From a virus: a stretch of 29,068 nt of DNA. How positions within the stretch are numbered: position 1 is the first letter of the stretch; every line of letters begins with the position of its first letter. The notes beneath the pieces are model-generated. The model was given only the letters and a program-made list of their open reading frames with translations. It searched no databases and had not been told where the DNA came from. Below are positions 2,317 to 28,599 of this stretch, one piece after another. The stretch lies in IMG/VR virus record IMGVR_UViG_3300027796_000037, positions 1-29,068 of that record, one strand, 5' to 3'. A program made the translations under genes and the position numbers.

Positions 2317-2345
2317 AAAAAAAGACAGCCCTTTTCAAGGCTGTC
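2317..2345 (-). terminator. Leader intrinsic terminator, module 4
   Basis: On the minus strand GACAGCC and GGCTGTC form a perfect 7-bp stem with an 8-nt loop, followed by seven T and then GTGG. It lies between the promoter at 2385-2412 and the gene starting at 2297, so it would stop transcripts before that gene unless bypassed. A separate small hairpin (TCCGC, loop GTGAT, GCGGA; 2350-2364) lies just upstream in the same leader. Confidence 0.8.
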
Positions 2346-2384
2346 CGAATCCGCATCACGCGGACATTGACGTTCCTAAGTCCG

Positions 2385-2412
2385 ATATTATTATTTGATC
2401 AAAAAAAGTCAA
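2385..2412 (-). promoter_or_regulatory. Sigma70-like promoter, module 4
   Basis: The -35 box TTGACT (2412-2407) and -10 box TAATAT (2390-2385) are separated by 16 nt. The promoter begins just after the TAG stop (2417-2419) of the large virion gene. Predicted transcripts would start near 2378, form the 5' hairpin at 2350-2364 and meet the terminator at 2317-2345 before reaching the adaptor gene. Three other places in the window have the same layout. Confidence 0.7.
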
Positions 2413-7511: not shown

Positions 7512-7555
7512 AAAAAATCCCCGTTCAGAAACATAAAACGTTCCCTACTTGAGGA
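7512..7555 (-). terminator. Weak terminator-like leader element, module 3
   Basis: On the minus strand TCCTC can pair with GGGGA, with an inner CGTTT/GAACG stem, followed by ATTTTTT and GTG. The hairpin is less regular than in the other three modules, but the order (promoter, 5' hairpin at 7564-7581, hairpin with T run, then GTG, then ribosome site) is the same. Termination here is plausible, not certain. Confidence 0.45.
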
Positions 7556-7596
7556 CTTGTTTTCCGACAACCTTGTGCCGGTTACTGCCTACTTAC

Positions 7597-7624
7597 AAAA
7601 TAAGTGATTTTCAATTCTTGTCAA
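7597..7624 (-). promoter_or_regulatory. Sigma70-like promoter, module 3
   Basis: TTGACA (7624-7619) and TATTTT (7602-7597) are separated by 16 nt. The -35 box overlaps the TGA stop of the glycosyltransferase gene that ends the sugar cluster. The promoter drives the pair of putative internal virion genes. The following leader has a 6-bp hairpin (CCGGCA, loop CAAGGT, TGTCGG; one G-U pair) at 7564-7581. Confidence 0.75.
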
Positions 7625-12840: not shown

Positions 12841-13317
12841 TTACCTCTTGAGTGAAATAAATGTCGGCCTGTTGTTTGTAATTGCTACTCGTAAAATTGA
12901 CGGGACATCCTCTTTTGTTTGAGGCCACATCTGCACAATGTTTGGAACAGTATTCAAGACTTCATCGACCCCTGTTGCATCGTGGGAAATTCCATCATGG
13001 GAATAATCATTGTCCCTTCCTGATCCAATGAGTTTCACGGGTATATGCTCATGGTGTAAGTACAATCTAAGCGTTTCATATGCCCGATAAATTAAGAATG
13101 GCGTAATGGTATAGACAAACGGAATCTTTCCTTCGAGTGCAAGACCAACAGCAATACCGATCATCGCCTGTTCGCTTGCTCCACAGTTTAGACATCTATC
13201 CGGGAAATCCTTGAAGTGCTGGTCAAAGACTTTGTATCCCAAATCACCAACCAACAAAAATATCTTGTCATTGGTTTTCATTTCTTCATAGAGCGTATCA
13301 GCCAGTAATCTTCTCAT
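12841..13317 (-). CDS. Transketolase C-terminal subunit (pyrimidine-binding)
   Basis: The product is 158 aa. The ATG at 13317 has AAGGAGG 3 nt upstream and overlaps the end of the N-terminal subunit gene by 20 nt. NCGASEQAMIGIAVGLALEG carries the Glu that activates the thiamine aminopyrimidine ring in transketolases. Later SHDATGVDEVLNTVPNIVQ is the usual transketolase helix and strand. The third domain of full-length transketolases is missing, so this is a minimal two-subunit form. With the N-terminal gene it should form a heteromeric ThDP enzyme moving two-carbon units between sugar phosphates. Confidence 0.87.
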   Translation of the reverse strand: MRRLLADTLYEEMKTNDKIFLLVGDLGYKVFDQHFKDFPDRCLNCGASEQAMIGIAVGLALEGKIPFVYTITPFLIYRAYETLRLYLHHEHIPVKLIGSGRDNDYSHDGISHDATGVDEVLNTVPNIVQMWPQTKEDVPSILRVAITNNRPTFISLKR

Positions 13318-13939
13318 AATCCTCCTTGGTCAACGTGTAATAATGCCCGGACAATCCTTGCAGATAGTCAGGGAGTGCGTATACATCGGTTTTCATAACA
13401 AGCGATGGGTAGAAGTATTGAAGTCGAAGATCGAGCCAATCGGTATCGACCTTTTGATATGCGGAATACCCGTTTGCGTTGACCATGATTTTGAGGTTTT
13501 CCAATCGAAGCTCTGCTGCGATTCTCAACGCTTCCCAACATGACCCTTCCGCAAGTTCCCCATCGCTTGTCAATACGTATATATCGCGGGTTTTATCCGC
13601 AATTGCCATTCCTACTGCTATTGGTAATGCTTGTCCAAGGCTTCCAGAAGATACCCATATACCATTCTCAACATCACGATTCGGGTGTACACCGTGTTTC
13701 TCAAATAACTGCTCTGCGTCTTTCCCCTCATGTTTTTCAAGAACAACGTATAACGCAAGTCCCGCATGACCGTTTGATAAGACAACTTTATCTTTCGGTG
13801 TTTTTGCTAAGTAGATTTTATCCAATAATCCAACAGAGGTAAGACACGATCCAAGATGGGATAAACCTTTTTTGTAGGATATATCAATCACCCTACGTTC
13901 TAACTTATTCAATACGGTTGTTCCACCTTTAGTTACCAT
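13298..13939 (-). CDS. Transketolase N-terminal subunit (ThDP pyrophosphate-binding)
   Basis: The product is 213 aa. GLSHLGSCLT near residue 25 supplies the first active-site His, and SNGHAGLALY a second. The ThDP/Mg motif is SDGELAEGSCWEAL and then MVNANG about 27 residues later. Ser replaces the first Gly of the GDG motif, a variant also known among surface-polysaccharide transketolases. The ATG at 13939 overlaps the epimerase stop. A TTG at 13912 with AAAGGTGG before it is a possible alternative start, since the first nine residues look non-conserved. Two-subunit transketolases are common in polysaccharide gene clusters, which fits the neighbours here. Confidence 0.87.
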   Translation of the reverse strand: MVTKGGTTVLNKLERRVIDISYKKGLSHLGSCLTSVGLLDKIYLAKTPKDKVVLSNGHAGLALYVVLEKHEGKDAEQLFEKHGVHPNRDVENGIWVSSGSLGQALPIAVGMAIADKTRDIYVLTSDGELAEGSCWEALRIAAELRLENLKIMVNANGYSAYQKVDTDWLDLRLQYFYPSLVMKTDVYALPDYLQGLSGHYYTLTKEDYEKITG

Positions 13940-14717
13940 ATGCGTTCACCTGCTCCTTTATAGATTCTTCTAATGTTTTACGAGGTAGCCATCCCCACGA
14001 ACGAACACGGTAATTTGTTGAAAACCATTGGAAATTATCATACGGTCGCATGGAATCAACAATGGTAATGTTTGCTTTCTTTCCTGTTATCTTTTCCACT
14101 AATTCAAGGACTTTTTGATTGCTTACTCTCTCACCCCATCCAACCTCAAATATTCCATGCACAGACCTGCTTGAAAGATTCATAATTGCCGATACAACGT
14201 CAGATACATCTATATAGTCGTGGGTAGCTTTCGGAACGAAGTTTATTTTCTCTCCTGTCATACATGACCGAATAAGTGTCGGAATTAAGTGTTCTTTTTG
14301 TTCTCCAACACCAGTAATTGATAGTGGTCTGATAATGCAGATTGGAAGACTATACTTCTCCATATAAGTCAGTAGTATTTCCTCTGCTGCTTTCTTTGCC
14401 CGTGAATATGGAGTTTGAATCTCTAGTTTGACTGACGAGGTTGAAATATAAACAAACGACTTGAATGATAGCTTTGACGCTTGCCCTATCATCGCCAATA
14501 GATCAAGCACGTTTGCTTTGATCGTCTGTTCAATGTCTGTCTGATAGTGCATATTCCCGTAGGAAGACAGAAAATAGAAGTTGTCAAACTCTCTAAGTTT
14601 TGTTACATCAAGAAGTTCGTGAGGAATACAGGATGCGGTATGTTTCTCCTGCTCTAATTTACGAAGCAAGTGTTGTCCTAAAAATCCCCCACTACCAGTA
14701 AGGTAAGACTTTGCCAT
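13929..14717 (-). CDS. NAD-dependent sugar epimerase/dehydratase (extended SDR)
   Basis: The product is 262 aa. The dinucleotide-binding motif TGSGGFLGQH lies at residues 7-16. FVYISTSSV carries the catalytic Ser/Thr and YSRAKKAAEE the Tyr-xxx-Lys pair. ICIIRPLSITGVGEQ matches the substrate-side PxxVxGPG-like region of nucleotide-sugar epimerases. At 262 aa it is shorter than typical family members (about 310-330). It would epimerise, dehydrate or reduce a nucleotide sugar in the cytoplasm. It is the first gene of the sugar cluster, directly after the promoter and terminator module at 14735-14823, and overlaps the transketolase gene. Confidence 0.87.
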   Translation of the reverse strand: MAKSYLTGSGGFLGQHLLRKLEQEKHTASCIPHELLDVTKLREFDNFYFLSSYGNMHYQTDIEQTIKANVLDLLAMIGQASKLSFKSFVYISTSSVKLEIQTPYSRAKKAAEEILLTYMEKYSLPICIIRPLSITGVGEQKEHLIPTLIRSCMTGEKINFVPKATHDYIDVSDVVSAIMNLSSRSVHGIFEVGWGERVSNQKVLELVEKITGKKANITIVDSMRPYDNFQWFSTNYRVRSWGWLPRKTLEESIKEQVNAYGN

Positions 14718-14734
14718 AAGACCCTAATAACCAC

Positions 14735-14763
14735 AAAAAAACCCACAGGAAAATTCCTGCGGG
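14735..14763 (-). terminator. Leader intrinsic terminator, module 2
   Basis: On the minus strand CCCGCAGGAA pairs with TTCCTGTGGG (one G-U pair), followed by seven T and GTGG. It lies between the promoter at 14804-14823 and the epimerase gene. The 5' hairpin GCGGC, loop ATATG, GCCGC (14768-14782) directly precedes it. Confidence 0.85.
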
Positions 14764-14803
14764 TCGAGCGGCCATATGCCGCATAACCTATACTCTGTAT
14801 GTA

Positions 14804-14823
14804 ATTATATCACACGCTGTCAA
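14804..14823 (-). promoter_or_regulatory. Sigma70-like promoter, module 2 (extended -10)
   Basis: TGATATAAT (14812-14804) is an extended -10 box with a perfect TATAAT. A TTGACA at 14823-14818 lies only 8 nt upstream of it, too close to serve as its -35. If that TTGACA is used, the -10 would be a poor CATACA 16 nt downstream. The extended -10 choice places the 5' hairpin 21 nt after the -10 box, close to the 19-20 nt seen in modules 1 and 4. It drives the sugar cluster. Confidence 0.7.
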
Positions 14824-14844
14824 TCTACTTATTCTATTAGATAG

Positions 14845-16293
14845 TTAGTAAATCATTATTCTTCGTAAAATAGTTGATATGCTTGCGAGATAGTAAATCC
14901 ACTTGATGGCTCCTGTACTGGATAATGCACGAATCCATATCCTGTTTCCTTGTGCAACTGCTCCCGCAAGATACCAATCTGTGGTTACAGGTTTGACACT
15001 ATTCTTTACAACGGAATATCGGTAGAACCGCGCCGGTACGGTTGCTGATGGTGCAGTATAGAAATAGATATATTCCCCAGTCCAATCACTCCCCGACCCA
15101 GTTGCGAGAACGTGTATGTTTGGCAAGTAGGTTATTGCTTCCCATGTATACGCTCCGCTCGTTCCACCATTTAAGGATAACCGTGCCAATACCGAGGTTG
15201 TTCCATCAAAGGAATAGATATACCTTCCATCTTTAATATTGGTTATATCAGCCCATCCCGTATCCCCAGTTACTCCGACAAAATCAGCCGTCATCCCTGC
15301 GACTGCGTTATTTGCCCGCGCAGCAGTTGGTGAGATGTTTCCCCATGAATTTCCCGATATGGAGTATTTAACTACTGTTTTTACATTGTTCCCCAATAGA
15401 TAAATGGCATTTTCATCCCCTTCAATAACGTAAGTTGATGAGGAATCTATCGTTGCGCCCGTTGCAAAAGTTAGGGATGTTGCATCGGAATCGGTAATTG
15501 TTCTAATCTGTCCAATCCCTGTTCCCCCTGTGATTCTCACTTGATAGTTTATCCATTGGTCGGTTGCCCAGCCTTTTGATGAATCAACAAGTGTCGTTGC
15601 GCTTCCGCTTGATGCTGTTCCCGAATCGTAGGAAACACCCAACATTCCCGTATGTACCATTCTTCCGTCTGTTCCCCATGTTGACGCAAGGTTTGTAATG
15701 GAAAGTGTTGAACCCCATGACATCGTTCCGACATCAAAGCGTTTGAATGACGTAGCAACAACTCCTGATGTAAAGATAAAGAATGACCCTGATGCAATCC
15801 TAAACGTATCTGTGTTTGCAACGGATGATGGTACTGCGCTGTCAAAGGTAATCGTTATCGTAGACCCCGCCACCCCAGTCGTAAGGATTTTTGTTATCGT
15901 TCTTCGTAGTCCGATATTTGCTGCCGTTCCCGAAAGAAACTCAATCGTCTTTCCGATAACGAATCCATTGATGTTATGGGTGCTCAATGCAACCGTGACT
16001 GTCGTTGTTGACCCGCCGGTTGCCGTATACGTTGGTGACCAATCGCTAAAACACCCACACGCACCTGCGGTTATAGCAGGGCTGAACGCTCCTGATGTGA
16101 CTTGAATCCAGTCATCATTATCATGGTCATACAGGTAATGTACCGTTGCTGAAACCATGTAGAATGAAAGCCTGTGTAGGTTTGCATTATCATTGACCAC
16201 GAAAGTATTTGCTGCGCTTGCAGTCAAGGCTGGCATCATGGTCTGCCATTCTTTCCTATGTAATAATGCTACGTTGTTTTGTGCTTCTGCCAT
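14845..16293 (-). CDS. Beta-rich virion structural protein, kelch-like
   Basis: The product is 482 aa. The ATG has AAAAGGAG 6 nt upstream. It is rich in Ser, Thr and Gly with almost no Cys. Several segments look like kelch or beta-propeller blades, for example NAIYLLGNNVKTVVKYS followed by NSWGNISP, and GRYIYSFDGTTSVLARLS. The middle contains two similar motifs, LRRTITKI..ITFDSA and IGQIRTITD..LTFATGA, that may be small duplicated barrels. It is the last gene of the structural block before the sugar cluster. A surface-exposed fibre, decoration or receptor-contact role is possible; the sequence shows only a secreted-style beta fold. Confidence 0.7.
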   Translation of the reverse strand: MAEAQNNVALLHRKEWQTMMPALTASAANTFVVNDNANLHRLSFYMVSATVHYLYDHDNDDWIQVTSGAFSPAITAGACGCFSDWSPTYTATGGSTTTVTVALSTHNINGFVIGKTIEFLSGTAANIGLRRTITKILTTGVAGSTITITFDSAVPSSVANTDTFRIASGSFFIFTSGVVATSFKRFDVGTMSWGSTLSITNLASTWGTDGRMVHTGMLGVSYDSGTASSGSATTLVDSSKGWATDQWINYQVRITGGTGIGQIRTITDSDATSLTFATGATIDSSSTYVIEGDENAIYLLGNNVKTVVKYSISGNSWGNISPTAARANNAVAGMTADFVGVTGDTGWADITNIKDGRYIYSFDGTTSVLARLSLNGGTSGAYTWEAITYLPNIHVLATGSGSDWTGEYIYFYTAPSATVPARFYRYSVVKNSVKPVTTDWYLAGAVAQGNRIWIRALSSTGAIKWIYYLASISTILRRIMIY

Positions 16294-16305
16294 ATATGCT
16301 CCTTT

Positions 16306-16875
16306 TTATCCGACACAATTGTTTATATTAGATTGAATCGCTGTAAGATTTTCCTGTGCAAGTCTCATGGTATATCCAATACCAGAAAGGCTCTTTTCTG
16401 CGATTGAATTTGCTGATGTAATCGGCCCTGTCACCGCAGTTGAAACAGATGCTATTGGTGTTACCCGAAGCGATGGATTTCCTGCGTTCATCGCACTTGC
16501 CAATGGCGCAAGCCGACTTGTCAATTCCTGTAATGTTTCTATAAGAGAATTGAGCGTTGTTTCCAACGCTACCTGTGAATCCTGTTTTGCAGATGTTGCT
16601 GCCCCCGTAGGTAATGGCAAAGCTGAAGCAGATACTGGTTGTGATGCGGGAAAATTAGATACAGCCACCTGATGATTGTCTGGTAATTGTTTTGCAGATG
16701 TAGCAAAACCAATAATTGCAGATGGTGGTGTTAAAGTTGTTATTTGTGCTGCTGGTAATGGATATTCCGTAGGAAATGTAATTGCTTTTACATCAACTTC
16801 TACTCCATTTTCTCCAACATTTGCTGTTATATCACTATCACCACTTTTTATTGTAATGTTTTTTAAGTATGACAT
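16306..16875 (-). CDS. Virion protein with ATSAKQ repeats
   Basis: The product is 189 aa. It starts 4 nt after the preceding stop without a clear ribosome site, so it is probably translated by coupling. The motif ATSAKQ occurs twice (GFATSAKQLPDN and LPLPTGAATSAKQDSQ), the second time in the form I associate with structural proteins of many environmental phages. The N-terminus is beta-like (ITIKSGDSDITANVGENGVEV). The middle is a Leu-rich helix (LETTLNSLIETLQELTSRL) that may trimerise. It lies among large beta-rich virion genes and is probably a fibre or baseplate-linked part. The exact role is unknown. Confidence 0.65.
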   Translation of the reverse strand: MSYLKNITIKSGDSDITANVGENGVEVDVKAITFPTEYPLPAAQITTLTPPSAIIGFATSAKQLPDNHQVAVSNFPASQPVSASALPLPTGAATSAKQDSQVALETTLNSLIETLQELTSRLAPLASAMNAGNPSLRVTPIASVSTAVTGPITSANSIAEKSLSGIGYTMRLAQENLTAIQSNINNCVG

Positions 16876-16879
16876 AGGT

Positions 16880-17743
16880 TTATATTACACTCCATGAACC
16901 AGATGAACCATCAATAATATCTACACTTTCCCATTGATGTAATGATTGTGTTATTTCATCATCTATTGTTTCACTATCATTTCCATCAATAGTTACAACT
17001 CCACTATTTATGTTTTTAATTGTGATAATACGACTGCTTCCTGTTGCCGAAGGTAGTGTAACTGTCATTGAAGATGCTTTATTACAAATAACTACCGCGT
17101 CTATAGATTGAACAATATAATCATCTAATGCTACGCTTACAACTGTGTTTGGATTTTGAATTTGTATCCATGTTCCATTTGACCTGAAATATATATCATT
17201 ATTGTTTGCATTTATAACAATCATTCCATCGTTTGCTGAAAATGTTGGTTCTTCTTCCACAACACCAATCATTGATGGCTTTCCTGCGCTATCAGGAAGC
17301 ATCTCTGAGGATGCTCCATCTATGGTCCACGGGCTTTGAACATCTACTGCATTCCGATTAAAACTTGCAGCTCTAACCGTAAAACTCACGCCCGTTGAAT
17401 AGGCTGTACTTCCTCCATCGGAATCAACATAGAGAACTCTGACATAGTAAGAGGTAGAAAGAGCGAGTTTGGTTAATCCTGCTAACGCTCCAGCGAAAGT
17501 TCCATTTGTGGCATTGACGACTATTGAAGTCTTATTTGAAGTATCTGCTGACTTTGACCACACAACTGACGAAAACCCGCTATCTGTAGCAATCTGCCAT
17601 GTACTGCTGGTATGGGTAAAACTCTCTGAAGAACTAAAAGTAGAGGATGTAATGGTCGGATTCCGAGATACATTCGTTTCTCCACTTGTGGGTGAAGTAA
17701 TGGTTGGTGTTGCTGGACTGGTTAGTGTTGTAAATGATGCCAT
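16880..17743 (-). CDS. Virion protein with N-terminal FN3-like domain
   Basis: The product is 287 aa. The ATG at 17743 is chosen because GGGAG precedes it; the upstream ATG at 17767 lies inside the previous gene. Residues about 8-120 form an FN3 or Ig-like domain closely similar to the C-terminal domain of the preceding protein (shared PATPTI, DSGFSS / DAGFSS, N-TNGTF-GAL). Residues about 205-287 are a compact beta domain (AVVICNKASSMTVTLPSA, VTIDGNDSETI) of the kind found at the ends of phage fibre proteins. Probably an accessory fibre or decoration protein. Confidence 0.7.
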   Translation of the reverse strand: MASFTTLTSPATPTITSPTSGETNVSRNPTITSSTFSSSESFTHTSSTWQIATDSGFSSVVWSKSADTSNKTSIVVNATNGTFAGALAGLTKLALSTSYYVRVLYVDSDGGSTAYSTGVSFTVRAASFNRNAVDVQSPWTIDGASSEMLPDSAGKPSMIGVVEEEPTFSANDGMIVINANNNDIYFRSNGTWIQIQNPNTVVSVALDDYIVQSIDAVVICNKASSMTVTLPSATGSSRIITIKNINSGVVTIDGNDSETIDDEITQSLHQWESVDIIDGSSGSWSVI

Positions 17744-17745
17744 AA

Positions 17746-19083
17746 TTAGCTCCCGTATGCACTCCATCCCCCTGCGGAATCTTTATATCTCACTCTCCAA
17801 TAATAGGTTGTATTTGAGGCAAGAGTTGTTCTTCCTTCCAATGCGCCACTAAAGGTTCCATTCGTACTATTGACCACACATGAGGTTAGGTTTGTACTTG
17901 TATCACCACTATCCCAAACTTTAGAAGAAAACCCCGCATCGGTATAGACTTCCCATTGGCTTCCTGCATGAGTTTGACCTACATCAGTATCACTAAAGGC
18001 TGACGCTGTGAGTGTAGGTGTTCGTGATTGATTGGTAGCACCGTTCGTTGGAGTAGAAATAGTTGGAGTTGCAGGAACAGTATTATTTGATTCTTCTGCT
18101 CCAACTGCATAGAAGGTAGAAGATGAGTTTTCATTATTATAAACAGCAGTAATCCAGCTATCGGCTTTTCGTGCGCCTTCCATGAACATCCAGCTTTTCA
18201 GACTTCCCTGAAAATACCACGTTGAAAAATTACCCTGTTGAAATGCTTGACCAGAATGAGCAGATGTTTTATGCCACCCAATATTTGCTCCTGATGTCCC
18301 ATCTAATGCACCATTGACGTACACTTTTGTATTATTGTCTGTTGAACTCCATGTAACAGCAACGTGATAGAGCGTATTTACGCTGATACTTGTCGTAAAA
18401 TTATAATAATTCGGTGCTCCTGTATACCAATACACCCGAAGTGCGCTTGTGCTTGGATTCCATAATAAGCCATGATAGATTCCATCAATAGCAATTACTG
18501 GTGGTTTTTGAAATTCTTCTGCTCCACCAGCTCCATTTCCTGTTGGTTTAATCCACCCATAGACCGTTCCCGATGTCGGTGGTCCATTCATAAGAGTAGT
18601 CCCTGCAGCTACTTTACTTGAACTTCCATTAAAGACTGCTCCAAGTGCGCTATATGTTATGCTTGTTGCTGTTCCGTTGTTTCCAACCTGTGACCGATCT
18701 GTAACATCTGCATCATAAGGGAAATAGGACTTTACAATTGATGGATATGTTGACGTTGAGTTTGTTTCTGCACCAGCACTATTCCCATAGTAGATATAAA
18801 AGTCTGTATCAGTTGACGCAGAGAGCGTATCAGCAAGAAATTTTAAGTGTCCTGTTTTTGCAGACGTATCTATGGCAATAAGATCACGGTTTACCTTTGT
18901 TGTCCCATCGGTTTTTGTAACAACAATATCTGATCCATCTGCCTTTGCTCCTGTAAAGAACGCATCAGGCATATCATCTAAATCAACCTTCACAGGAAAG
19001 TCAGTCTGGTTTTCCCCACCAAGGAGATCTTTATCAACCGTAACTTTAATCCGATGGTCCCATGATGCGTTATACCATGCCAT
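17746..19083 (-). CDS. Virion protein: DUF2341-like, LamG and FN3-like domains
   Basis: The product is 445 aa. The ATG has GGAG about 6 nt upstream. Residues 1-100 (WYNASWDHRIKVTVD, FYIYYGNSAG) match the DUF2341-type beta domain that often precedes LamG domains. Residues about 115-315 resemble a LamG or concanavalin-like jelly roll (GTVYGWIKPTG, YHVAVTWSSTDNNTKVYVNG), a fold that often binds carbohydrate. Residues about 335-445 are an FN3-like domain. The protein ends at SAYGS without the last strand seen in the related domain of the next gene. The domain set suggests a surface-exposed, glycan-binding virion part such as a tail fibre or head decoration. Confidence 0.8.
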   Translation of the reverse strand: MAWYNASWDHRIKVTVDKDLLGGENQTDFPVKVDLDDMPDAFFTGAKADGSDIVVTKTDGTTKVNRDLIAIDTSAKTGHLKFLADTLSASTDTDFYIYYGNSAGAETNSTSTYPSIVKSYFPYDADVTDRSQVGNNGTATSITYSALGAVFNGSSSKVAAGTTLMNGPPTSGTVYGWIKPTGNGAGGAEEFQKPPVIAIDGIYHGLLWNPSTSALRVYWYTGAPNYYNFTTSISVNTLYHVAVTWSSTDNNTKVYVNGALDGTSGANIGWHKTSAHSGQAFQQGNFSTWYFQGSLKSWMFMEGARKADSWITAVYNNENSSSTFYAVGAEESNNTVPATPTISTPTNGATNQSRTPTLTASAFSDTDVGQTHAGSQWEVYTDAGFSSKVWDSGDTSTNLTSCVVNSTNGTFSGALEGRTTLASNTTYYWRVRYKDSAGGWSAYGS

Positions 19084-19084
19084 A

Positions 19085-19378
19085 TCAACTCCATGCAGAA
19101 ATACTTACTGCATCTCCAGCAGCGTTATAACTAATTGTCTTTGTGTAAGATGTTGAACCTATGGTCTTTGTAAGAACCTTTGTAGATGTAACTGTGGTAT
19201 CTGCGTTGGAAATAGTCATAGACCCATTCCCTTGCATACCAGTTATCGCTTCCATTTGACTTAATACAGGGTTATACGACATGGATTCAACCTGTAGTAA
19301 CCCATAAATAGGATCAAACGATGTACTCAGTACATTTTGTTCACTGTATTTTGTTTGAGTTGGTCTAGTAGTAGCCAT
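19085..19378 (-). CDS. Small virion protein, unknown function
   Basis: The product is 97 aa. The start ATG is preceded by a weak AAAGTG. It is rich in Ser, Thr and Met, with strands such as GSMTISNADTTVTSTKVLTKT and SYTKTISYNAAGDAVSI. A beta-sandwich or fibre-base subunit is plausible. It lies 2 nt before the LamG gene and overlaps the end of the preceding one by 14 nt, so it is cotranslated with structural genes. No named family recognised. Confidence 0.65.
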   Translation of the reverse strand: MATTRPTQTKYSEQNVLSTSFDPIYGLLQVESMSYNPVLSQMEAITGMQGNGSMTISNADTTVTSTKVLTKTIGSTSYTKTISYNAAGDAVSISAWS

Positions 19379-19790
19379 ACTTTTTCACTTTCTGTTTTAA
19401 GTCTTTGGTTGATAAAAGAAATTTCATATAGTTTGATAGAACACCGATTTTAATGACTGATCGTTCTTCTTTTGATAATCCATGTAACTTTTCCATGTCT
19501 TTCAATTCTTTCTCAACAGCGGTCACGCTGTTGGCTATCTCACCATCCTCAATTTTATTGGTAAGATACTGTTCTATTGTTCCGATCTCATCACTAAACC
19601 CTTCTTCCCAATATTCCCCAAGATCATAATGCTTGACGGAAAACGGTTTTCCATGCGCTTTTTGATAGTCCGTATATGGAACCTCGATTCCTGTTTCAAT
19701 AGGGGTACTATCAACCTTGGGAGCTGTTGGTACTTCCTCAGGCTTTATTGATTCTGATTGTGTTCTAATAATCGTGTCCATGTGTTTCAT
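19365..19790 (-). CDS. Unknown phage protein, helical C-terminus
   Basis: The product is about 141 aa. Starts at GTG 19796, ATG 19790 and ATG 19781 are all possible; none has a strong ribosome site, and the region overlaps the preceding gene, so coupling is likely. The N-terminal 35 residues are polar and disordered. The middle has HGKPFSVKHYDLGEYWEEGF and the rest is a charged helix (ANSVTAVEKELKDMEKLHGLSKEERSV). No enzymatic motif. Its place after the capsid gene suggests a head-completion or connector role, but this is inference. Confidence 0.65.
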   Translation of the reverse strand: MKHMDTIIRTQSESIKPEEVPTAPKVDSTPIETGIEVPYTDYQKAHGKPFSVKHYDLGEYWEEGFSDEIGTIEQYLTNKIEDGEIANSVTAVEKELKDMEKLHGLSKEERSVIKIGVLSNYMKFLLSTKDLKQKVKKYGYY

Positions 19791-20007
19791 CCGCACGAAT
19801 CATCAATAATTCATGCCGGAACCTCTCAACCGCCCTGCGGTCATCATTCCGAATTGCCATAATAAGTTTCTTCCGATAATCCTCGACCATCGGGCTTTCT
19901 GATCTGATCCGATAGAGTGTCCGATCAATCATGTCCCTCTCAAAGAGGTTACGCGCTTTATCCCGATGCTCTAAGAGCTGTAATATGTCTTCTTTTCGTG
20001 TATCCAT
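19765..20007 (-). CDS. Small charged helical protein, unknown
   Basis: The product is 80 aa from the ATG at 20007. A longer reading to 20085 would lie inside the HNH gene and has a different composition. It is almost entirely helical and strongly charged (TRKEDILQLLEHRDKARNLF, RAVERFRHELLMIRAD). The HNH gene overlaps its first 50 nt and no Shine-Dalgarno sequence is visible, so the endonuclease may have inserted over its original ribosome site. Head-tail connector context; function unknown. Confidence 0.6.
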   Translation of the reverse strand: MDTRKEDILQLLEHRDKARNLFERDMIDRTLYRIRSESPMVEDYRKKLIMAIRNDDRRAVERFRHELLMIRADETHGHDY

Positions 20008-20599
20008 ACGTTTCAAATAATTTATGACACTTTGAACATAATTCAATCCATGTATCTTTATTTTCTCTGTCGTACTTTCCATCAAGATTATGCCATTGAG
20101 TAGGATTTTTTATCCTTCCCTGTGGTGTTGGAATATCACCACAATTCTGACATATCCCTGACTTATTCCAATGTTTAATGATCCACTTATGCTTAGAAGT
20201 GTAACTTGCGTTATTACCCTTCCAACTTTCGTGCTTTTCTCCTATAATTCCAATTCTTCCTTTGTAACTATGATTTTCTAACCCTGAAATAATTGCCTTT
20301 TTCTGCATTTCTCTATAATCTTCCTTCGACCTTTTTTTTGCATTTATCCTATTTATTTGAGTTATTTTCAAAAGCGCACTTTTTTTATGCTTTTGGAAAT
20401 GACCCATATTCGGATATTTTTCCCTATCAATCTTTATTCCAAAGTTCCAAGATTTCTTTCCAATTTTATCTAAATCTGAACACTTTCTACTGCAAAATCT
20501 GGTTGAAATCCACTTTGTTCTACTTAAATATCTTTTTTTTCCAAAAACTTTTTTACAATATTCACATACTTTTGTTTCAGGTGGGGATATAGTTTTCAT
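19958..20599 (-). CDS. Free-standing HNH homing endonuclease
   Basis: The product is 213 aa. An N-terminal zinc-finger-like motif has Cys at 12, 15, 36 and 40. The middle is Lys-rich and DNA-binding in character. The C-terminal HNH region has a CQNCG and CSKCH zinc pair around QWHNLDGKYDRENKDTW. The gene is visibly more A/T-rich than the flanking structural genes, which suggests recent arrival. It lies between the capsid gene and a small head gene, and its last ~16 codons run into the next gene. Its ribosome site and start codon are folded into a 12-bp hairpin (20580-20610). It would cut related phage DNA lacking the insert and spread by repair. Confidence 0.88.
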   Translation of the reverse strand: MKTISPPETKVCEYCKKVFGKKRYLSRTKWISTRFCSRKCSDLDKIGKKSWNFGIKIDREKYPNMGHFQKHKKSALLKITQINRINAKKRSKEDYREMQKKAIISGLENHSYKGRIGIIGEKHESWKGNNASYTSKHKWIIKHWNKSGICQNCGDIPTPQGRIKNPTQWHNLDGKYDRENKDTWIELCSKCHKLFETYGYTKRRHITALRASG

Positions 20600-20610
20600 A
20601 TACCCCCACC
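20580..20610 (-). promoter_or_regulatory. RBS-sequestering hairpin of the HNH gene
   Basis: On the minus strand the ribosome site GGTGGGG pairs with CCCCACC, which encodes part of codons 5-8. A G-U pair and TATA/TATA extend the stem to 12 bp around a 7-nt loop TGAAAAC. The start codon ATG lies at the stem-loop junction. Translation of full-length mRNA should be strongly limited, as is known for the T4 intron endonuclease I-TevI. Confidence 0.8.
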
Positions 20611-20657
20611 TTACTACAATTCACCGACATTAGCAACTAGTAAAACTAGCTGTAACA

Positions 20658-21614
20658 CTACACAGCGGCGAATCTGGCGGCGACTACCCAAGCTGAGTTG
20701 AGTAATTTACACGCATAGCTTCCTGCCCAAGATATGATAGAAATACGCCCTGCGGGTGAATTGCTATCGACTTGATTCGGAAGAATGTAAAGTTTCGGCT
20801 GATCTTTCTCAAGATCATAGATACCGAAGGCATCTTTGCCATGAACATAGGTATAGAACCTAGTTGTGGTAGAAGAAGCTGTTGAGGCTGCTTCTGTGCC
20901 GGACATGACATCAATGTTTAATAACCAGCGAACTCCATAGAGTTCACCGATTTCACCTTTGTAGAGGCCTTTTACGTCAGAATACGTTTTTGCTGCTACC
21001 CACGTGGTATCTGCAATAAGGTTATTCTTTGAGTATGGGTCTGTTTTCCCCAAGAACAAGCCATCCTGATATTTCATCGCTTTGGCAAGCTCAAGAGTGC
21101 GAACCATCGCACGGATATCACACGCATCAAGGGTGTCACCTGCCGTGAACGAAGCCACGTTATGTGTGTTACCGAAGAATGATGTGCCGTTTTGAAGTTC
21201 GTTTCCTACAAGTCGGTTCAATGTTTCTCCCATGTTCTGTCCCATCGCTTCAACTGCTTCTTTCATGTTGGTATCAATAGATACTAACGAGCCAAGACGG
21301 GATGTTTGAGTGGTTAGACCATACTCAGACAATGTCATGGAAACGGTTGATAGATTGATTGCACAGGTTACTGGGTTGGACATTTCTCCAAGAGGAGTTG
21401 TTACAACCGAGAATGGTTGGAACCGTGTGAAATTGACTGTGCGACCTTCATTGGTCGGGTGAGTTCTTTTTTGACCTCCCTCTCCTAAAATGAACGGATA
21501 TTGTGCACGTGCCAAGAACACTTTTTCGTAATATGTTGCTACACCGGGAGCCAACGTTCCAGACGAAATGTTTGGATTGCTGACGCCGGAAATTCCTGAT
21601 CCTACGACTGCCAT
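20658..21614 (-). CDS. Major capsid protein, N4-gp56 family
   Basis: The product is 318 aa. The ATG is preceded by AAAGGATGG. Segments TYYEKVFLARAQYPFILGEG, KRTHPTNEGRTVNFTRF, LSEYGLTTQTSRLG and AVEAMGQNMGETLNRLVGNE appear in the order seen in N4-gp56-type capsid proteins, which have the HK97 fold. Length is in the expected range (about 300-400 aa). It follows the scaffold-like gene, as is usual. There is no obvious cleaved prodomain, consistent with a separate scaffold protein. This is the main shell subunit of the head. Confidence 0.92.
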   Translation of the reverse strand: MAVVGSGISGVSNPNISSGTLAPGVATYYEKVFLARAQYPFILGEGGQKRTHPTNEGRTVNFTRFQPFSVVTTPLGEMSNPVTCAINLSTVSMTLSEYGLTTQTSRLGSLVSIDTNMKEAVEAMGQNMGETLNRLVGNELQNGTSFFGNTHNVASFTAGDTLDACDIRAMVRTLELAKAMKYQDGLFLGKTDPYSKNNLIADTTWVAAKTYSDVKGLYKGEIGELYGVRWLLNIDVMSGTEAASTASSTTTRFYTYVHGKDAFGIYDLEKDQPKLYILPNQVDSNSPAGRISIISWAGSYACKLLNSAWVVAARFAAV

Positions 21615-21633
21615 ATGTATTCACCATCCTTTC

Positions 21634-21647
21634 GAGCAAGATTGCTC
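21634..21647 (-). promoter_or_regulatory. Small hairpin in the leader of the capsid gene
   Basis: GAGCAA and TTGCTC pair around a 2-nt TC gap on the minus strand, in the 53-nt space between the scaffold stop and the capsid start and just before the ribosome site. There is no T run, so it is not a normal terminator. It could mark a processing or stability point. Confidence 0.4.
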
Positions 21648-21667
21648 ATGTTGCAAAGTTCTTGCGC

Positions 21668-22420
21668 TTAGTTGACGAATCCCAGTTCTTTTTCAAGTTC
21701 TGCAATCGACTTATCACTATGCGTTTTTCCACCTTTCGTTGATACAGAAGTCGGTCGTGTGGCGGTTTCAGATACTTGCTTTGCTATATTCTCTGTTACC
21801 TTGCCGACTTCTTTTTGTACCGCCCTTGTGTAGGGTTTCATCATCTTTTCCACGAATTTCTTAGGTGATGCTGTGTAGGGGTTAGCCTTCACATAGGCCT
21901 CTGTGGCCTCGGTAATCGAATCGGATAGTTCCCTATCAAAGTCAACGTGATCAGGATCAAGTTGTGGAAATAGCTGAACAACCTGCTGTGCCTCAGAATT
22001 GATCCGGGTGATTGCTTCGCTCTGTTTAATCTTTAGACTAACCAGACTTTCCGCTGTCCGCATCACGTCTTGTTTGTACTGTTCGGTTGTTAATTCAGAC
22101 CCTTCACTCACTTGCGGTTGATATGGTGCCTGTGGCATCTGTTGGTCTACTTGACCTGTAAGTTCCGCAAGTTTTTGTTCAAGGCTTTTTGCTTTTTCCT
22201 CAGCACTCTTTGCTTTCGCATTGAGTTCCCTGATTCTCTGATTCGCTCCTTTTTTGGGAGCTTCCTCCGTTTCAGTTTGTGTTTCCTCTGATTCCTCCAC
22301 CGTCGCTTCAGATTCAGGAGTTTCCACTTCCTCGGTTGCTTTTGGTTCTTCGGTTGACGGTTCCGAAACGCTGGCTTCTTCCCCAGCTTCAAGTTTTACG
22401 TCAAGTTGATCATCATTCAT
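21668..22420 (-). CDS. Putative capsid scaffolding protein
   Basis: The product is 250 aa. The ATG has AAGGAG 6 nt upstream. Residues 1-54 are extremely acidic (mostly Glu, Thr, Ser, Pro). Residues about 57-95 form a charged coiled coil (AKSAEEKAKSLEQKLAEL). The C-terminal half is helical, with basic residues (KMMKPYTRAVQKEVGKV). Position directly before the capsid gene, the acidic N-terminus, coiled coil and basic C-terminus are the classical look of a phage scaffold protein. No protease motif is present. Confidence 0.8.
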   Translation of the reverse strand: MNDDQLDVKLEAGEEASVSEPSTEEPKATEEVETPESEATVEESEETQTETEEAPKKGANQRIRELNAKAKSAEEKAKSLEQKLAELTGQVDQQMPQAPYQPQVSEGSELTTEQYKQDVMRTAESLVSLKIKQSEAITRINSEAQQVVQLFPQLDPDHVDFDRELSDSITEATEAYVKANPYTASPKKFVEKMMKPYTRAVQKEVGKVTENIAKQVSETATRPTSVSTKGGKTHSDKSIAELEKELGFVN

Positions 22421-22466
22421 GGTGATCTCCTTCCGTTACACACCGATTGCGTCATGTGAGAATACG

Positions 22467-22492
22467 AGGCCATGAATACGATTCATGTGCCT
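22467..22492 (-). promoter_or_regulatory. Strong stem-loop between small head gene and scaffold gene
   Basis: AGGC, CATGAAT and their complements ATTCATG, GCCT form an 11-bp stem with a single bulged A and a CGT loop. It lies in the 79-nt gap before the scaffold ribosome site. No T run follows, so it more likely acts on mRNA ends or processing than as a terminator. Confidence 0.55.
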
Positions 22493-22499
22493 ATCACGC

Positions 22500-22745
22500 T
22501 CACATCCCTACTTCTTTCCGATCTTTAAGAATCGCCTCACCTGTTTCCGTAACGCCAACCATGATCTTTTTAGGTCCAATCCATACCGCGTGTTGAATTT
22601 CACAGCTTTTACATACAAGATAAAAACCCTGTTGACGGTATGTATGATTGCCTTTCGGCAAGAACACGAAATCAGGTTTCGTAAAATCCAACTGTTCTTG
22701 TGCTTCCTCGATCTCTGTTTCATTGTTTTGCGCTTGGTCGTTCAC
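22500..22745 (-). CDS. Small phage protein with CxxC, unknown
   Basis: The product is 81 aa. It begins with GTG at 22745, preceded by AAGGAGG 3 nt upstream. Residues 1-22 are acidic and Gln-rich. The core FTKPDFVFLPKGNHTYRQQG leads to LVCKSCEIQHAVWIGPKK, with one Cys-x-x-Cys pair and nearby His residues that could bind metal. Only one pair is present, so a zinc site would need a partner or a dimer. It overlaps the preceding gene by 26 nt. It lies in the head block between portal and scaffold. Function unknown. Confidence 0.7.
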   Translation of the reverse strand: MNDQAQNNETEIEEAQEQLDFTKPDFVFLPKGNHTYRQQGFYLVCKSCEIQHAVWIGPKKIMVGVTETGEAILKDRKEVGM

Positions 22746-23043
22746 AAGCCTCCTTGCTATCCGATACTTTATTGAGCAGCTTATTGATGATCCCTTTAGT
22801 CAGGGATATGACAATCGTGTTCTTTCCTAATTCTTCATACGTTGCCCCATTTGCTACTGCTGAATCATTCAACTGATCTAATTCTTTAACTAATGTTTCT
22901 GCATACTCTGAAAAGAGTTTCCATCCATTCGTCTTGCTCATCCCATAGAGCATTTGTTCATCATCTGTTGCTTCTTTCTTCGTGTCTTCCCGTTGAAGCG
23001 TAGGAAAGCTGGAATAGAAATCAGGTCGGACTGCTTTAGCCAT
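22720..23043 (-). CDS. Small head-block protein, unknown
   Basis: The product is 107 aa. The ATG is preceded by AAGGAGG. The N-terminus (VRPDFYSSFPTLQRED) is polar; most of the rest is helical (GWKLFSEYAETLVKELDQL). I recognise no family or catalytic motif. It overlaps the portal gene end by 8 nt, so it is translated with the portal. Function unknown. Confidence 0.65.
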   Translation of the reverse strand: MAKAVRPDFYSSFPTLQREDTKKEATDDEQMLYGMSKTNGWKLFSEYAETLVKELDQLNDSAVANGATYEELGKNTIVISLTKGIINKLLNKVSDSKEACERPSAKQ

Positions 23044-24868
23044 TGAATCCTCCTTGTTGTGGTAGTTGTTCCATTTGTGGTTGCATCTGCTGTTCCATCT
23101 GTCCCGGTTGTGTTGGAACTTGGTTCATGTTCCCGGATACTGCCTGTTGCATCGCCATCTGAAGCTGTTGCTGTTGTTGCATGAGAATTGCATCGTCTTT
23201 TTCTTCCGGGGTCTTCTCGACCACGATCTTGTCCCAATCCTGTATTCCTGAGTTGGATACAACTTTCTTGAATAGCTCACCCAATTTGACGGTAAACCCT
23301 TCCTGATCAAGCTTTTGGATTAAGGCATCACCCATCTGTGGGTTAGCAGTAAACATGGTCAGAAGGTTCGTCAGATTATCCTGCTGGCTCTTTTGATCAA
23401 GAGCGAATGTTGATCCTGATACCAGTTCATAGTCATAGACTGTTGATCCTGTGGTCTTTTTATCAATCGTGACTTTCCCGGTCTTTGGATCGTACATCTG
23501 CTCAATGTCTTTATAACTGCGTGCCAATTCTTCAACCTCATTCTCAAACAACCGTAATGTTATGGCTGATGATTGTTTTTTTGAAATGAGGTTGACCATT
23601 TTCTTATAAACTTTTTTCAGGTATTGCTCCATGAAAAATCTATCAGCGTTATCACGGGTATTCTCCCGTTGTGATTGCATCTTTAATGCTTGTGGTGTCT
23701 TTCCAAACCCTGCTTCTGTCTGTTGTGTGACTGAGGTATCTGTTGTTCCAAACAGATTAAGAAGTGATCCATTGGCCACTTGGTAGGTATTGTTGAATGT
23801 TGCAATACCCTGAGGGTTTAAGTTGATCGGCATGGCTACGTTGCTGATATTTCCCCGTGCTAACCACTTTGCAGCCGGAACATACTGAATGGATGATGAT
23901 GATGCGATGTTATCTTTGTTTAATATGACTGGCGGGAATATGGACATCTTGACCGCATCAAGATAGAGGTTCCATGCGCTATTGATCGCCTGTTGCATGG
24001 ATGCTCCACGTTCAAAATCACCCATCCCCATAAAATCATCCAAGAGTGGAATGGAGTATTTGCAGACAACAGGTAATTCACCGTCATCATGCGGGTTCTT
24101 AATATCCCGAAACTCCATGTCTGCATCGGTGCAGAAGTCTACCCACCGATCACCTTCGTACTGTGTCAGGACTTCGTAATATCCTTTGGACTTTGCTTCT
24201 TCGCTTGTCGGATATGCTGTGTCTTCTCTCCTCGACTTCTCATCTGAATCCCGGTCTTGTTTTGATCCGGCTCTGTCTTTCAGTTCGGTAATGATCTTGT
24301 CTATATTCTTGAATCCTTCACGTTTAGATTCTTTGAGGTTTTCAAAATATGACAATGGTTTCCATGTACGGACGATGATGTAATCACTATCGTCTACACT
24401 TACTGCTCCCACTTGCGGGAATACATCACGGATATTTAATAGCCATATATCAGGCCCAACGTATCCATTCTTTTTGACATCCCAATCCACAAGCGTAAAG
24501 AAATTTCCGTAGATGTTGGAATATAAATCTACCATCCGAAGTTTTGTCAGAAGATCAAACTGTGCATTTGCATTGGGATTGACATACTTCTCAAGAATCA
24601 AGTTCATCAAAGATGCTGCACCCATATCGTTTCTTGATATTGCTTTGACTTTCCCAACAGGAAGCTGTGCCATGACCCGATAGGATCGTTCAAGAGAAAG
24701 TGTTGAGAGTTTTGGATCAAAGACTGAGGACCTTGTTGTTCCTGAAATGGAATCGGCTAGTTGGTTATGAAAGAGTTTTTCGTAGGTATCCCATGCTTCT
24801 GTTTTAGTCGAAAGATAATCCTCTGCTGCGCTTTTACGGGTTAGAATTTCATCACGTATTTTTGACAT
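23036..24868 (-). CDS. Portal protein
   Basis: The product is 610 aa. The ATG at 24868 has AAGGA 4 nt upstream. A reading from 24940 would translate the leader terminator hairpin and is rejected. Size and order (after the terminase, before scaffold and capsid) fit a phage portal. Segments such as DLYSNIYGNFFTLVDWDV, FPQVGAVSVDDSDYIIVRTW and the long helix region QKSQQDNLTNLLTMFTAN resemble podovirus portal proteins, with a wing and clip core. The last ~50 residues are Gln/Met/Pro-rich, probably an inward-facing or disordered tail. It forms the dodecameric DNA gate and docks the terminase. It is the first gene after promoter module 1. Confidence 0.85.
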   Translation of the reverse strand: MSKIRDEILTRKSAAEDYLSTKTEAWDTYEKLFHNQLADSISGTTRSSVFDPKLSTLSLERSYRVMAQLPVGKVKAISRNDMGAASLMNLILEKYVNPNANAQFDLLTKLRMVDLYSNIYGNFFTLVDWDVKKNGYVGPDIWLLNIRDVFPQVGAVSVDDSDYIIVRTWKPLSYFENLKESKREGFKNIDKIITELKDRAGSKQDRDSDEKSRREDTAYPTSEEAKSKGYYEVLTQYEGDRWVDFCTDADMEFRDIKNPHDDGELPVVCKYSIPLLDDFMGMGDFERGASMQQAINSAWNLYLDAVKMSIFPPVILNKDNIASSSSIQYVPAAKWLARGNISNVAMPINLNPQGIATFNNTYQVANGSLLNLFGTTDTSVTQQTEAGFGKTPQALKMQSQRENTRDNADRFFMEQYLKKVYKKMVNLISKKQSSAITLRLFENEVEELARSYKDIEQMYDPKTGKVTIDKKTTGSTVYDYELVSGSTFALDQKSQQDNLTNLLTMFTANPQMGDALIQKLDQEGFTVKLGELFKKVVSNSGIQDWDKIVVEKTPEEKDDAILMQQQQQLQMAMQQAVSGNMNQVPTQPGQMEQQMQPQMEQLPQQGGFNG

Positions 24869-24887
24869 AGGTTCCTTTGATTGCCAC

Positions 24888-24914
24888 AAAAAAAGCAGGG
24901 GGACTTCCCCTGCT
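24888..24914 (-). terminator. Leader intrinsic terminator, module 1
   Basis: On the minus strand AGCAGGGG and CCCCTGCT form an 8-bp stem with a 5-nt loop, followed by seven T and GTGG. It is placed between the promoter at 24952-24979 and the portal gene. The 5' hairpin GCTGC, loop ATATG, GCAGC (24918-24932) lies directly upstream. Confidence 0.85.
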
Positions 24915-24951
24915 AGAGCTGCCATATGCAGCATGAGCAATATTGATTAGC

Positions 24952-24979
24952 AGAATAAATGGTTTTTGATTTCTGTCAA
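24952..24979 (-). promoter_or_regulatory. Sigma70-like promoter, module 1
   Basis: TTGACA (24979-24974) and TATTCT (24957-24952) are separated by 16 nt. This is almost the same layout as the promoter at 7597-7624. It lies just after the stop of the ORF ending at 24986 and should drive the portal, scaffold and capsid block, if the leader terminator is passed. Confidence 0.75.
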
Positions 24980-24985
24980 GGGGGT

Positions 24986-25099
24986 CTAGTATCTGATCCG
25001 CTTGTTCTTCACTAGATTGAGTGTTGAAAGATCAGCGATCCCGTCTTTTACTACGACATTAACGCTTATCTGGCCGTATTGCATTTTGGTAGTTTCCAT
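24986..25099 (-). CDS. Possible tiny ORF overlapping the preceding gene
   Basis: The product would be 37 aa (start METTKMQYGQ, end VKNKRIRY). It overlaps the preceding gene by 41 nt in another frame and has no clear ribosome site. The peptide looks protein-like (alternating hydrophobic and polar residues) and fills the space up to promoter module 1. It could also be reached by a frameshift from the preceding gene. Low confidence. Confidence 0.3.
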   Translation of the reverse strand: METTKMQYGQISVNVVVKDGIADLSTLNLVKNKRIRY

Positions 25100-25322
25100 C
25101 GCTAGTATCGTATGAAAACCCACGTTCTTTTTGAGCAACGAATACACACCCTCTGTAGTTGTCTGTGTAGGTGATTGTTTCGAATTGGGCATAGTCTTCG
25201 ATATTTCCTTGACTTACTCTGATTGTGAAAGTGAACAATCCATCCTTCTTCTCTTGCATATCCCGTTCAATATCAAGATGCGGTCTAATGTTATGCTGGT
25301 TGATCGTAAGTTCATAGTTCAT
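25059..25322 (-). CDS. Small phage protein, unknown
   Basis: The product is 87 aa. The ATG at 25322 has AAGGA 3 nt upstream and overlaps the terminase stop by 4 nt. It is beta-rich (DGLFTFTIRVSQGNIEDYAQ, FETITYTDNYRGCVFVA) and may be a small barrel. There are no catalytic motifs. It is cotranscribed with the terminase. Function unknown. Confidence 0.65.
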   Translation of the reverse strand: MNYELTINQHNIRPHLDIERDMQEKKDGLFTFTIRVSQGNIEDYAQFETITYTDNYRGCVFVAQKERGFSYDTSDGNYQNAIRPDKR

Positions 25323-26488
25323 ATTCCTTGTACCCACTTGGTATCATCCGGCAATTCAAAGTCTTCTTCTTGTCGGTTCATACTGTTGAGGGCATAGCGT
25401 ATCGCATCCATCGCGTGATTGAAGATCACATCGGGTTCATTGATGGTCTTTCCGTCTTTGTCTGTTTGCCATAGATAGTTCCGATATTCTTTCAATACAT
25501 TGGTGCTACGTTTTGTTACAGATATACGCTGCTGTTGTACGTATTGGATACCCTTTAATATACTTCCCTGACCTTTGAGTGATGGTTGGATACTCACTCC
25601 GTAACTCATAATCTCATCAATGCTCTTGGGTTCTGCGCTGTCTGCAATACAAAGTGCTGTCCGTTGGTTGAGGATAATATCGGCAATCTGTTTATTTGAT
25701 AATCCTTTTTGATACGTTATTTCATCGAAGATATATCCCCCGTTATACCAGTAGATTGCGATGATTGCTGTAGGGTCGTTGGAGTATCCGAAATCTATCC
25801 CGAAGCGTTCTAATCGTGCTTCATGGGGTATCTCGTCTATCGTTTGCCAATCGATGTATATCTTGCCTTCATAGTCACCCAGTTGTCCTTCACCGTACAC
25901 TTTCCACCAGTTCTTGTTTCCTTTTCGGGATTCAATCGCTTGTACGATCTGTGGATCAAGGGCTTCATTGTCTTTGTAGGTAAGGATAAGAAAATCATTC
26001 TCTTGTTTGTTGAGTATATCGGTATAGAACCAAAACTCTGAAACAGGATTCCAGTCGAGCCATATAATCTTTTTCGTTCTGACTTCCAACTGTGTATATG
26101 TTTCATAGCTGATATTGTTTGCTTCATTCACAAACAGAATGTCCCGCCTTGGCCCTCGTACTTTCCCCGGTTGGTCTGCACTAAAGAACTCGATGATGGA
26201 TTCATTCGGGAATGTATAGATAAAATCCGTTTTATTCCACCGTTTATCATCAAAGCATTTGTGTTCCTGCATGATGGATAGGAAGTCCCGGATTGCTCCC
26301 CGTTTGAGGTGTGGCATGGATTCAGATACTACCGAGAGTGTTTCTTTTTCTTTGTTGGTTCCGGCTCTCTGAATCATCCACAAAAGAATTGAAATTGTCT
26401 TAGATGCTGACGTACCACCAGCCACTCCCCTAAGTCGTTTCCGTAGTGATAGTATCTTGTCTGTTGCTGTTGTCCGTTGATACATCAT
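25319..26488 (-). CDS. terL: Terminase large subunit
   Basis: The product is 389 aa, close to the PBSX/Terminase_3 length. Walker A is GGTSASKT at residues 24-31. Walker B is DILFVNE at 116-122, ending in the catalytic Glu, and the coupling motif LDWNP follows near residue 145. The nuclease domain has its three metal-binding acidic positions in GIDFGYSNDP (about 230), ADSAEPKSIDE (about 285) and NHAMDAIRYA (about 365), so all motor and nuclease sites look intact. It packages and cuts DNA at the portal. The ATG overlaps the small-subunit stop as ATGA, so the two are translated together. Confidence 0.93.
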   Translation of the reverse strand: MMYQRTTATDKILSLRKRLRGVAGGTSASKTISILLWMIQRAGTNKEKETLSVVSESMPHLKRGAIRDFLSIMQEHKCFDDKRWNKTDFIYTFPNESIIEFFSADQPGKVRGPRRDILFVNEANNISYETYTQLEVRTKKIIWLDWNPVSEFWFYTDILNKQENDFLILTYKDNEALDPQIVQAIESRKGNKNWWKVYGEGQLGDYEGKIYIDWQTIDEIPHEARLERFGIDFGYSNDPTAIIAIYWYNGGYIFDEITYQKGLSNKQIADIILNQRTALCIADSAEPKSIDEIMSYGVSIQPSLKGQGSILKGIQYVQQQRISVTKRSTNVLKEYRNYLWQTDKDGKTINEPDVIFNHAMDAIRYALNSMNRQEEDFELPDDTKWVQGI

Positions 26489-28571: not shown

Positions 28572-28599
28572 ATCCTATTCTCCTTTCAACAATACTTTT

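Follow-up and report, generated by a model that had tools for sequence, protein, structure and literature searches.

A predicted antiterminator-terminator switch in the leaders of structural operons of uncultured phages

The virus record IMGVR_UViG_3300027796_000037, analysed at its full length of 29,068 bases and called the window below, carries at four operon starts a leader module in which a sigma70-type promoter is followed by a small hairpin (P2), an intrinsic terminator with a run of six or seven T, the bases GTG(G) and then the gene. The module is probably a promoter-proximal attenuator at the start of late (structural) operons, off by default and dependent on stabilisation of an antiterminator. 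This antiterminator would consist of P2 and an outer helix, P1, whose 3' side is the start of the terminator 5' arm, so that P1 with P2 and the terminator are mutually exclusive by base overlap. The late-gene switches known from phages depend for the most part on Q-type proteins, sigma factors or phage polymerases; in this one phage family several late operons seem to be headed by RNA switches.

The leader module in the window

Almost all genes of the window lie on the minus strand, including those for terminase, portal, major capsid protein and adaptor and a glycan-modifying cassette, whose genes were assigned by reading translations. Within the window the full module is confined to four operon starts, ahead of the portal gene, the glycan operon (14.7 kb), the gene at 6385-7494 and the adaptor gene, with the following parts.

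24952..24979, minus strand: portal-operon promoter TTGACA-16-TATTCT (from the sequence and homologous portal leaders)
24936..24940, minus strand: 5' side of P1, TTGCT, with the start of the terminator arm as partner (fold as P1 and P2; P1 covariation)
24918..24932, minus strand: P2 hairpin GCTGC-ATATG-GCAGC (sequence; homologues covary)
24888..24914, minus strand: portal intrinsic terminator AGCAGGGGAAGTCCCCCTGCT and T-run; AGCAG at 24914..24910 doubles as the predicted 3' side of P1
23036..24868, minus strand: portal protein gene, ATG 19 nt past the T-run (PHROG portal/adaptor matches; frame checked on the sequence)
14804..14823, minus strand: promoter-like elements of the glycan-operon module, extended -10 TGATATAAT at 14804-14812 and TTGACA at 14818-14823, in unusual spacing
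14785..14788, minus strand: predicted 5' side of P1 in the 14.7-kb module, GGTT, with partner GACC at 14765..14762 (folding)
14768..14782, minus strand: P2 hairpin GCGGC-ATATG-GCCGC (sequence)
14735..14765, minus strand: terminator of the 14.7-kb module, GACCCGCAGGAATTTTCCTGTGGG and T-run, ahead of the epimerase gene at 13929-14717
2385..2412, minus strand: adaptor-gene promoter TTGACT-16-TAATAT (sequence)
2350..2371, minus strand: predicted 5' side of P1 in the 2.3-kb module, GTC at 2371..2369, and P2 hairpin TCCGC-GTGAT-GCGGA (sequence, folding)
2317..2346, minus strand: terminator of the 2.3-kb module, GGACAGCC...GGCTGTCT and T-run; GAC at 2345..2343 is the predicted 3' side of P1
from 2297, after the 2.3-kb terminator, minus strand: adaptor gene (Pfam SU10_adaptor match)
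7512..7624, minus strand: 7.5-kb module, the weakest of the four, with promoter TTGACA-16-TATTTT at 7624..7597 and hairpin at 7581..7564

The terminator elements are G+C-rich stem-loops with the T-run directly after, which is the form of an intrinsic terminator; that of the 7.5-kb module, ahead of the gene at 6385-7494, is longer and imperfect and ends in T6. A CIRCE-like (controlling inverted repeat of chaperone expression) reading of GAGTGCTAA near the promoters was dropped, the sequence being explained by an extended -10 at a fixed distance from TTGACA.

An earlier note on this DNA had singled out the portal and glycan-operon hairpins, and both read on the minus strand as it described (24932..24918 and 14782..14768), with a central stem pair T-A in one and G-C in the other and with identical loop and close flanks. 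The hairpins it placed in the remaining modules are also present (2364..2350, loop GTGAT; 7581..7564, six pairs, one of them G-T). Unaided repeat finding matches 24916-24942 to 14766-14792 at 81% identity (D18). The 29 kb hold 34 perfect hairpins whose loop is 5 nt and whose stem is 5 bp or longer, so that such a hairpin alone is not rare; what goes beyond chance is its shared position inside the promoter-hairpin-terminator-T-run module.

Conservation and covariation in related phages

Relatives were gathered through searches with the capsid, terminase and portal proteins and comprise more than 150 contigs, nearly all uncultured IMG/VR records. There are no cultured relatives among them, and no isolate is nearer than 22% in portal; host assignment yielded three contigs of metagenome-assembled genomes with unlike or uninformative labels and no plasmid match. 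A terminator stands directly ahead of the portal gene in 79 of 89 distinct upstream regions, and 70 of these 79 leaders have an exact TTGACA at the matching upstream place, against 3 in a control window. The adaptor gene is preceded by a terminator in 12 of 17 cases, most other core genes in none (0 of 16-25 each), and the module itself precedes the adaptor gene in most relatives. A stricter module scan of 1.84 Mb returned 60 matches and none in the reversed sequence, and across whole related records the scan found up to three modules each (34 in total vs 2 in the reversed control). Several phages hold two to four modules at operon starts, with differing loops, and the adaptor-gene leaders of the relatives form a second class with the same anatomy and a different loop.

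In most relatives (G001, G002, G010, G016 and others) the promoter of the epimerase gene is TATAAT-like and its leader, short and rich in TTAGG, lacks a terminator; a terminator at the start of the glycan operon is limited to the window and a few others (G003, G014).

P2 of portal leaders frequently combines a 4-bp stem with the loop UNUAAU, in others the loop is longer or shorter or the stem 5 bp, and the stems vary widely (CTGC/GCAG, CCGC/GCGG, GTGC/GCAC, CGAT/ATCG, AAGT/ACTT and more). In adaptor leaders P2 has 4-5 bp, several different stems and an NNGAGUG-like loop. The invariant ATATG loop proposed in the earlier note thus holds for two modules of this phage, while the relatives mostly carry UNUAAU. 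In 23 homologous leaders each of the four stem pairs varies in both of its bases and all 92 cells remain paired, a count that is biased by the choice of the rows by eye; stem variation without complementary change, named in advance as what would refute selection on the structure, was not found in these rows. In a tree-aware, R-scape-like test on the same 23 rows, with a null in which substitutions were shuffled on the portal tree, no other column pair out of 300 scores as well as any of the four that form P2 (E at most 0.0033). The fifth-best pair flanks P2 and is purine-purine, G.G or A.A (E 0.04; alignment A3, columns 8 and 23), possibly a non-canonical pair in a structured, protein-binding internal loop. 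Of 18 leaders selected solely for the loop motif, 16 form a perfect 4-bp stem, the stem sequences being of many kinds, and a P2 stem score of at least 7 is reached by 62% of 74 distinct leaders vs 12% of dinucleotide shuffles. A covariance model built from a MAFFT whole-leader alignment was dropped, as it gave no base pairs, the variable terminators spoiling the alignment. Selection on P2 as RNA is therefore strongly supported by these sequences of homologous leaders, although the two copies with one compensatory change from which it was originally argued are thin evidence by themselves.

The outer helix P1 had been overlooked in the earlier note and, since it overlaps the terminator, with it the likely function. 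Just 5' of P2 lies a short stretch, GCY in most portal leaders and GTCT in many of the adaptor class, that is complementary to the opening bases of the terminator 5' arm. At least three pairs with the first 6 nt of the arm can form in 48 of 55 leaders, against 30.4 +/- 2.6 and a maximum of 40 in 5000 permutations of the 3' flank; in portal-class leaders with a limited register the figures are 23 of 41 and 12.8 +/- 2.4. Relatedness can inflate such a permutation result, and therefore flanks were also swapped between nearest relatives: in 20 disjoint pairs the leaders' own pairing was better in 9, worse in 1 and equal in 10 (sign p 0.011, Wilcoxon p 0.003). Permutation and swaps took the place of column-wise pair counting because the register shifts among leaders. 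Matched changes include GCC/GGC, GCT/AGC, AGC/GCT, GTC/GAC and ACC/GGT. Cut before the terminator 3' arm, leaders fold in RNAfold as P1 with P2 in 34/41 and 12/14 cases, and in full leaders the terminator is the favoured fold, the median difference being 5.1 kcal/mol. Different P1 helices (TTGCT/AGCAG in the portal, GGTT/GACC in the 14.7-kb and GTC/GAC in the 2.3-kb module) form together with P2 in the predicted folds of these three modules, and the window alone therefore offers three usable examples.

Several results weigh against P1 and the switch built on it. In the 7.5-kb module P1 is weak or absent and the fold unconvincing, and it is weak or absent in a few related leaders (L111, L113, L110, L049, L200). 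P1 is short, its register shifts, and the class consensus by itself already favours it. A fold-based permutation is significant for P1 (p 0.007) and not for P1 with P2 (p 0.051) or for mean energy (p 0.16), and the P1 pairing of adaptor-class leaders, taken by themselves, is no better than under permutation (p 0.54). The protein searches weigh on the same side: no known antiterminator domain (PF03589, PF03123, PF02357) was found in 20 related records, and no core gene of 19 related records is an obvious candidate for the factor. Taken with the permutation and swap results, P1 is well but not overwhelmingly supported as a predicted helix.

Proposed switch, competing explanations and candidate factors

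In the proposed switch RNA polymerase would start at the sigma70-type promoter and make a leader of about 50-70 nt, which would fold first as the antiterminator, i.e., P1 (3-5 bp), an internal loop with AAUR on one side and about GNUUA on the other, and P2 (4-6 bp), whose conserved loop is usually UNUAAU in the portal class and NNGAGUG in the majority of adaptor leaders. The emerging 3' arm of the terminator would then tend to displace P1, and transcription would end in the T-run just before the gene. The terminator alone should win, and the operon would hence stay off until something holds the antiterminator. A factor of phage or host origin that recognises the P2 loop and the internal loop late in infection would stabilise P1 and P2 and open the operon. 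Of this scheme the sequences themselves show the order of promoter, leader, terminator and gene, the selection on P2, the covariation of P1 and the bases it shares with the terminator; default termination, its relief through P1 and P2, the timing and the factor are inferred. The portal ATG directly touches the T-run in 40 leaders (e.g., L109, L114, L121), only 13 of them with a Shine-Dalgarno-like motif at the usual position, and the terminator helix may also mask the portal translation start. In some leaders (L017, L123, L128, L178, L187, L019) the ATG that follows the T-run begins a frame of a few codons at most (e.g., ATG GCC TAA), and the portal start lies slightly downstream.

The anatomy could also belong to a processive element similar to put, nut or the LoaP target, in which P2, with or without P1, is bound by polymerase or by a factor travelling with it, the adjacent and later terminators are ignored and the overlap with P1 is secondary. 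A hairpin near the promoter with a terminator downstream is the layout of HK022 put and of LoaP leaders (PMC9378689; PMC12691694), the loop and flanks of P2 are conserved while its stems are not, and the modules head multi-gene operons. Such an element would, however, have few internal terminators to overcome, most core genes having no terminator in front; put RNAs are about 70 nt with two stem-loops, against about 30 nt ahead of the terminator here; covariation of P1 with the terminator arm is not expected; and no NusG-family domain was found in 20 related records, which makes this explanation unlikely. That the terminated transcript of 50-70 nt is itself the product, a small RNA or packaging RNA beside the portal gene by ancestry, agrees with the complete promoter-to-terminator unit, its selected structure and its single copy beside the portal gene in nearly all relatives. 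It is nonetheless very unlikely, as the T-run touches the portal ATG in those 40 leaders and leaves no space for a second promoter, so that the portal gene must be read through from the leader or from upstream; several phages hold two to four modules with differing loops at operon starts, and no Rfam match was obtained (CyaR at 18.5 bits vs a 47-bit threshold is chance).

Control at the DNA level, with the inverted repeat as an operator or a TATAAT-like loop as a -10-like element of the lambda pR' kind that pauses polymerase still carrying sigma and on which a Q-type protein acts, has a slighter probability still. Many P2 loops do read TATAAT, and HK022 putL likewise has a -10-like element, at +23 to +28 (PMC9378689). 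Operators, however, conserve their arms and vary their centre, and P2 shows the reverse, a variable stem with a fixed loop, which is the signature of an RNA hairpin and not of a DNA operator. The pause reading was rejected because the second loop base, at the place of the key A in a -10 element, varies freely among A, C and G; loops of the adaptor class are NNGAGUG, and Antiterm PF03589 had no match in 20 records. The least probable of the four explanations is mainly translational control or mRNA protection, in which the hairpins would hide the start region or protect the 5' end and ribosomes would land on the T-run. Where the ATG abuts the T-run, with the Shine-Dalgarno-like motif in only 13 of the 40 leaders, the terminator helix would indeed cover the start site, but a strong hairpin followed at once by six to eight T is a textbook intrinsic terminator, here downstream of a promoter, and translational masking may be an added layer rather than an alternative.

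Under the favoured attenuator a cognate factor is expected, and known families gave no candidate. Antiterm (Q) PF03589, the CAT (co-antiterminator) RNA-binding domain PF03123 and NusG-family PF02357 were each found in 0 of 20 related records, whereas the controls gave PF03589 in E. coli, PF03123 in 4 of 14 genomes and PF02357 in 10 of 14; the PF03123 and PF02357 searches covered phage records, and the host might encode such a protein. A weak lead is a small open reading frame (ORF) next to the portal promoter.

24986..25192, minus strand: ORF Y, 68 aa, predicted helix and beta-hairpin, with KNKRIRY as its basic C-terminus; in most relatives its end lies shortly before the portal promoter

A pattern search placed homologues of ORF Y, 60-70 residues long and with a basic tail, shortly before the portal promoter in about 50 of 74 leaders. 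Its model is a helix plus beta-hairpin (pLDDT 82) without a match in the PDB by Foldseek. Kinship to DUF2292 was suspected and set aside, as it rested on one weak match (E 0.027). ORF Y is a possible partner of the switch, and could equally be a virion protein. ORFs Y (24986-25192) and X (25059-25337), both on the minus strand, are small, overlap between terminase and portal promoter and are conserved in the family, and no known family was matched by either.

The modules may, more tentatively, represent an undescribed class of phage riboregulators, a late-gene regulon in which several structural operons would each be headed by a promoter and a switch RNA of antiterminator and terminator. The loop class would differ between operons, and the RNA would either be recognised by a factor of no known antiterminator family, possibly ORF Y, or act without protein on RNA polymerase. 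They would offer a compact, testable antiterminator of about 35 nt across more than 100 uncultured phage contigs; the finding points to an RNA-binding factor, and the covariation signature can be used to find related phages.

Two further features of the window lie apart from the modules. Adjacent minus-strand genes at 12841-13317 and 13298-13939 read like two halves of a transketolase; the pair stands with glycosyl- and methyltransferase-like genes inside the structural cluster and is conserved in 17-18 of 19 related records. At 28592-28771 there are 12-base repeats of the GCTCCTGCTCCA type, whose reading frames are of low complexity (RS/SG if read from the minus strand, AP if from the plus strand).

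Comparison with known antitermination systems

Searches of Rfam 15 gave no gathering-level match in the window or in eight relatives, and a permissive search nothing credible; literature searches in open-access papers returned no description of such leaders in phages. Lambda-type Q and AlpA serve operons with a post-promoter terminator overcome by antitermination (PMC6606751; PMC9371919), but they use a DNA site in the promoter, whereas the conserved element of the module is an RNA hairpin with a variable stem. HK022 put resembles the module as a phage-encoded RNA just past the promoter and tied to readthrough (PMC9378689). It differs in having two stem-loops within about 70 nt, whereas the module has P1 and P2 only before the terminator, P1 borrowing the terminator arm; put antiterminates with no protein factor, acting on polymerase over long distances and in early operons, and terminator overlap is not one of its features. 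The dfn leader of LoaP is like the module in its small promoter-proximal hairpin followed by an intrinsic terminator (PMC12691694), but its hairpin is of UNCG type and separate from the terminator, and no LoaP-type NusG paralogue was found in 20 related phage records.

The closest likenesses are to two groups of bacterial attenuators. ANTAR leaders (AmiR, NasR, EutV) place small, conserved-loop hairpins ahead of a terminator, and the second hairpin overlaps the terminator arm; they carry two hairpins with A1 and G4 in the loops (PMC3369936), whereas the module has one, with UNUAAU or NNGAGUG. In ribonucleic antiterminator (RAT) leaders (BglG/SacY/LicT) the 3' side of the hairpin overlaps the foot of the intrinsic terminator and the two are mutually exclusive (PMC9981650; PMC3369936), and from sequence and folding the module is predicted to have the same overlap and exclusion. 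RAT, however, serves sugar operons and the module phage structural operons; sequence and loops, compared by eye, appear to differ from the RAT consensus, and the cognate RAT protein has a CAT domain, which is absent from the 20 related phage records. By anatomy, then, the module would work like a RAT or ANTAR attenuator, yet it falls outside both groups, and this combination marks it as a variant of a known attenuator type rather than a member of one.

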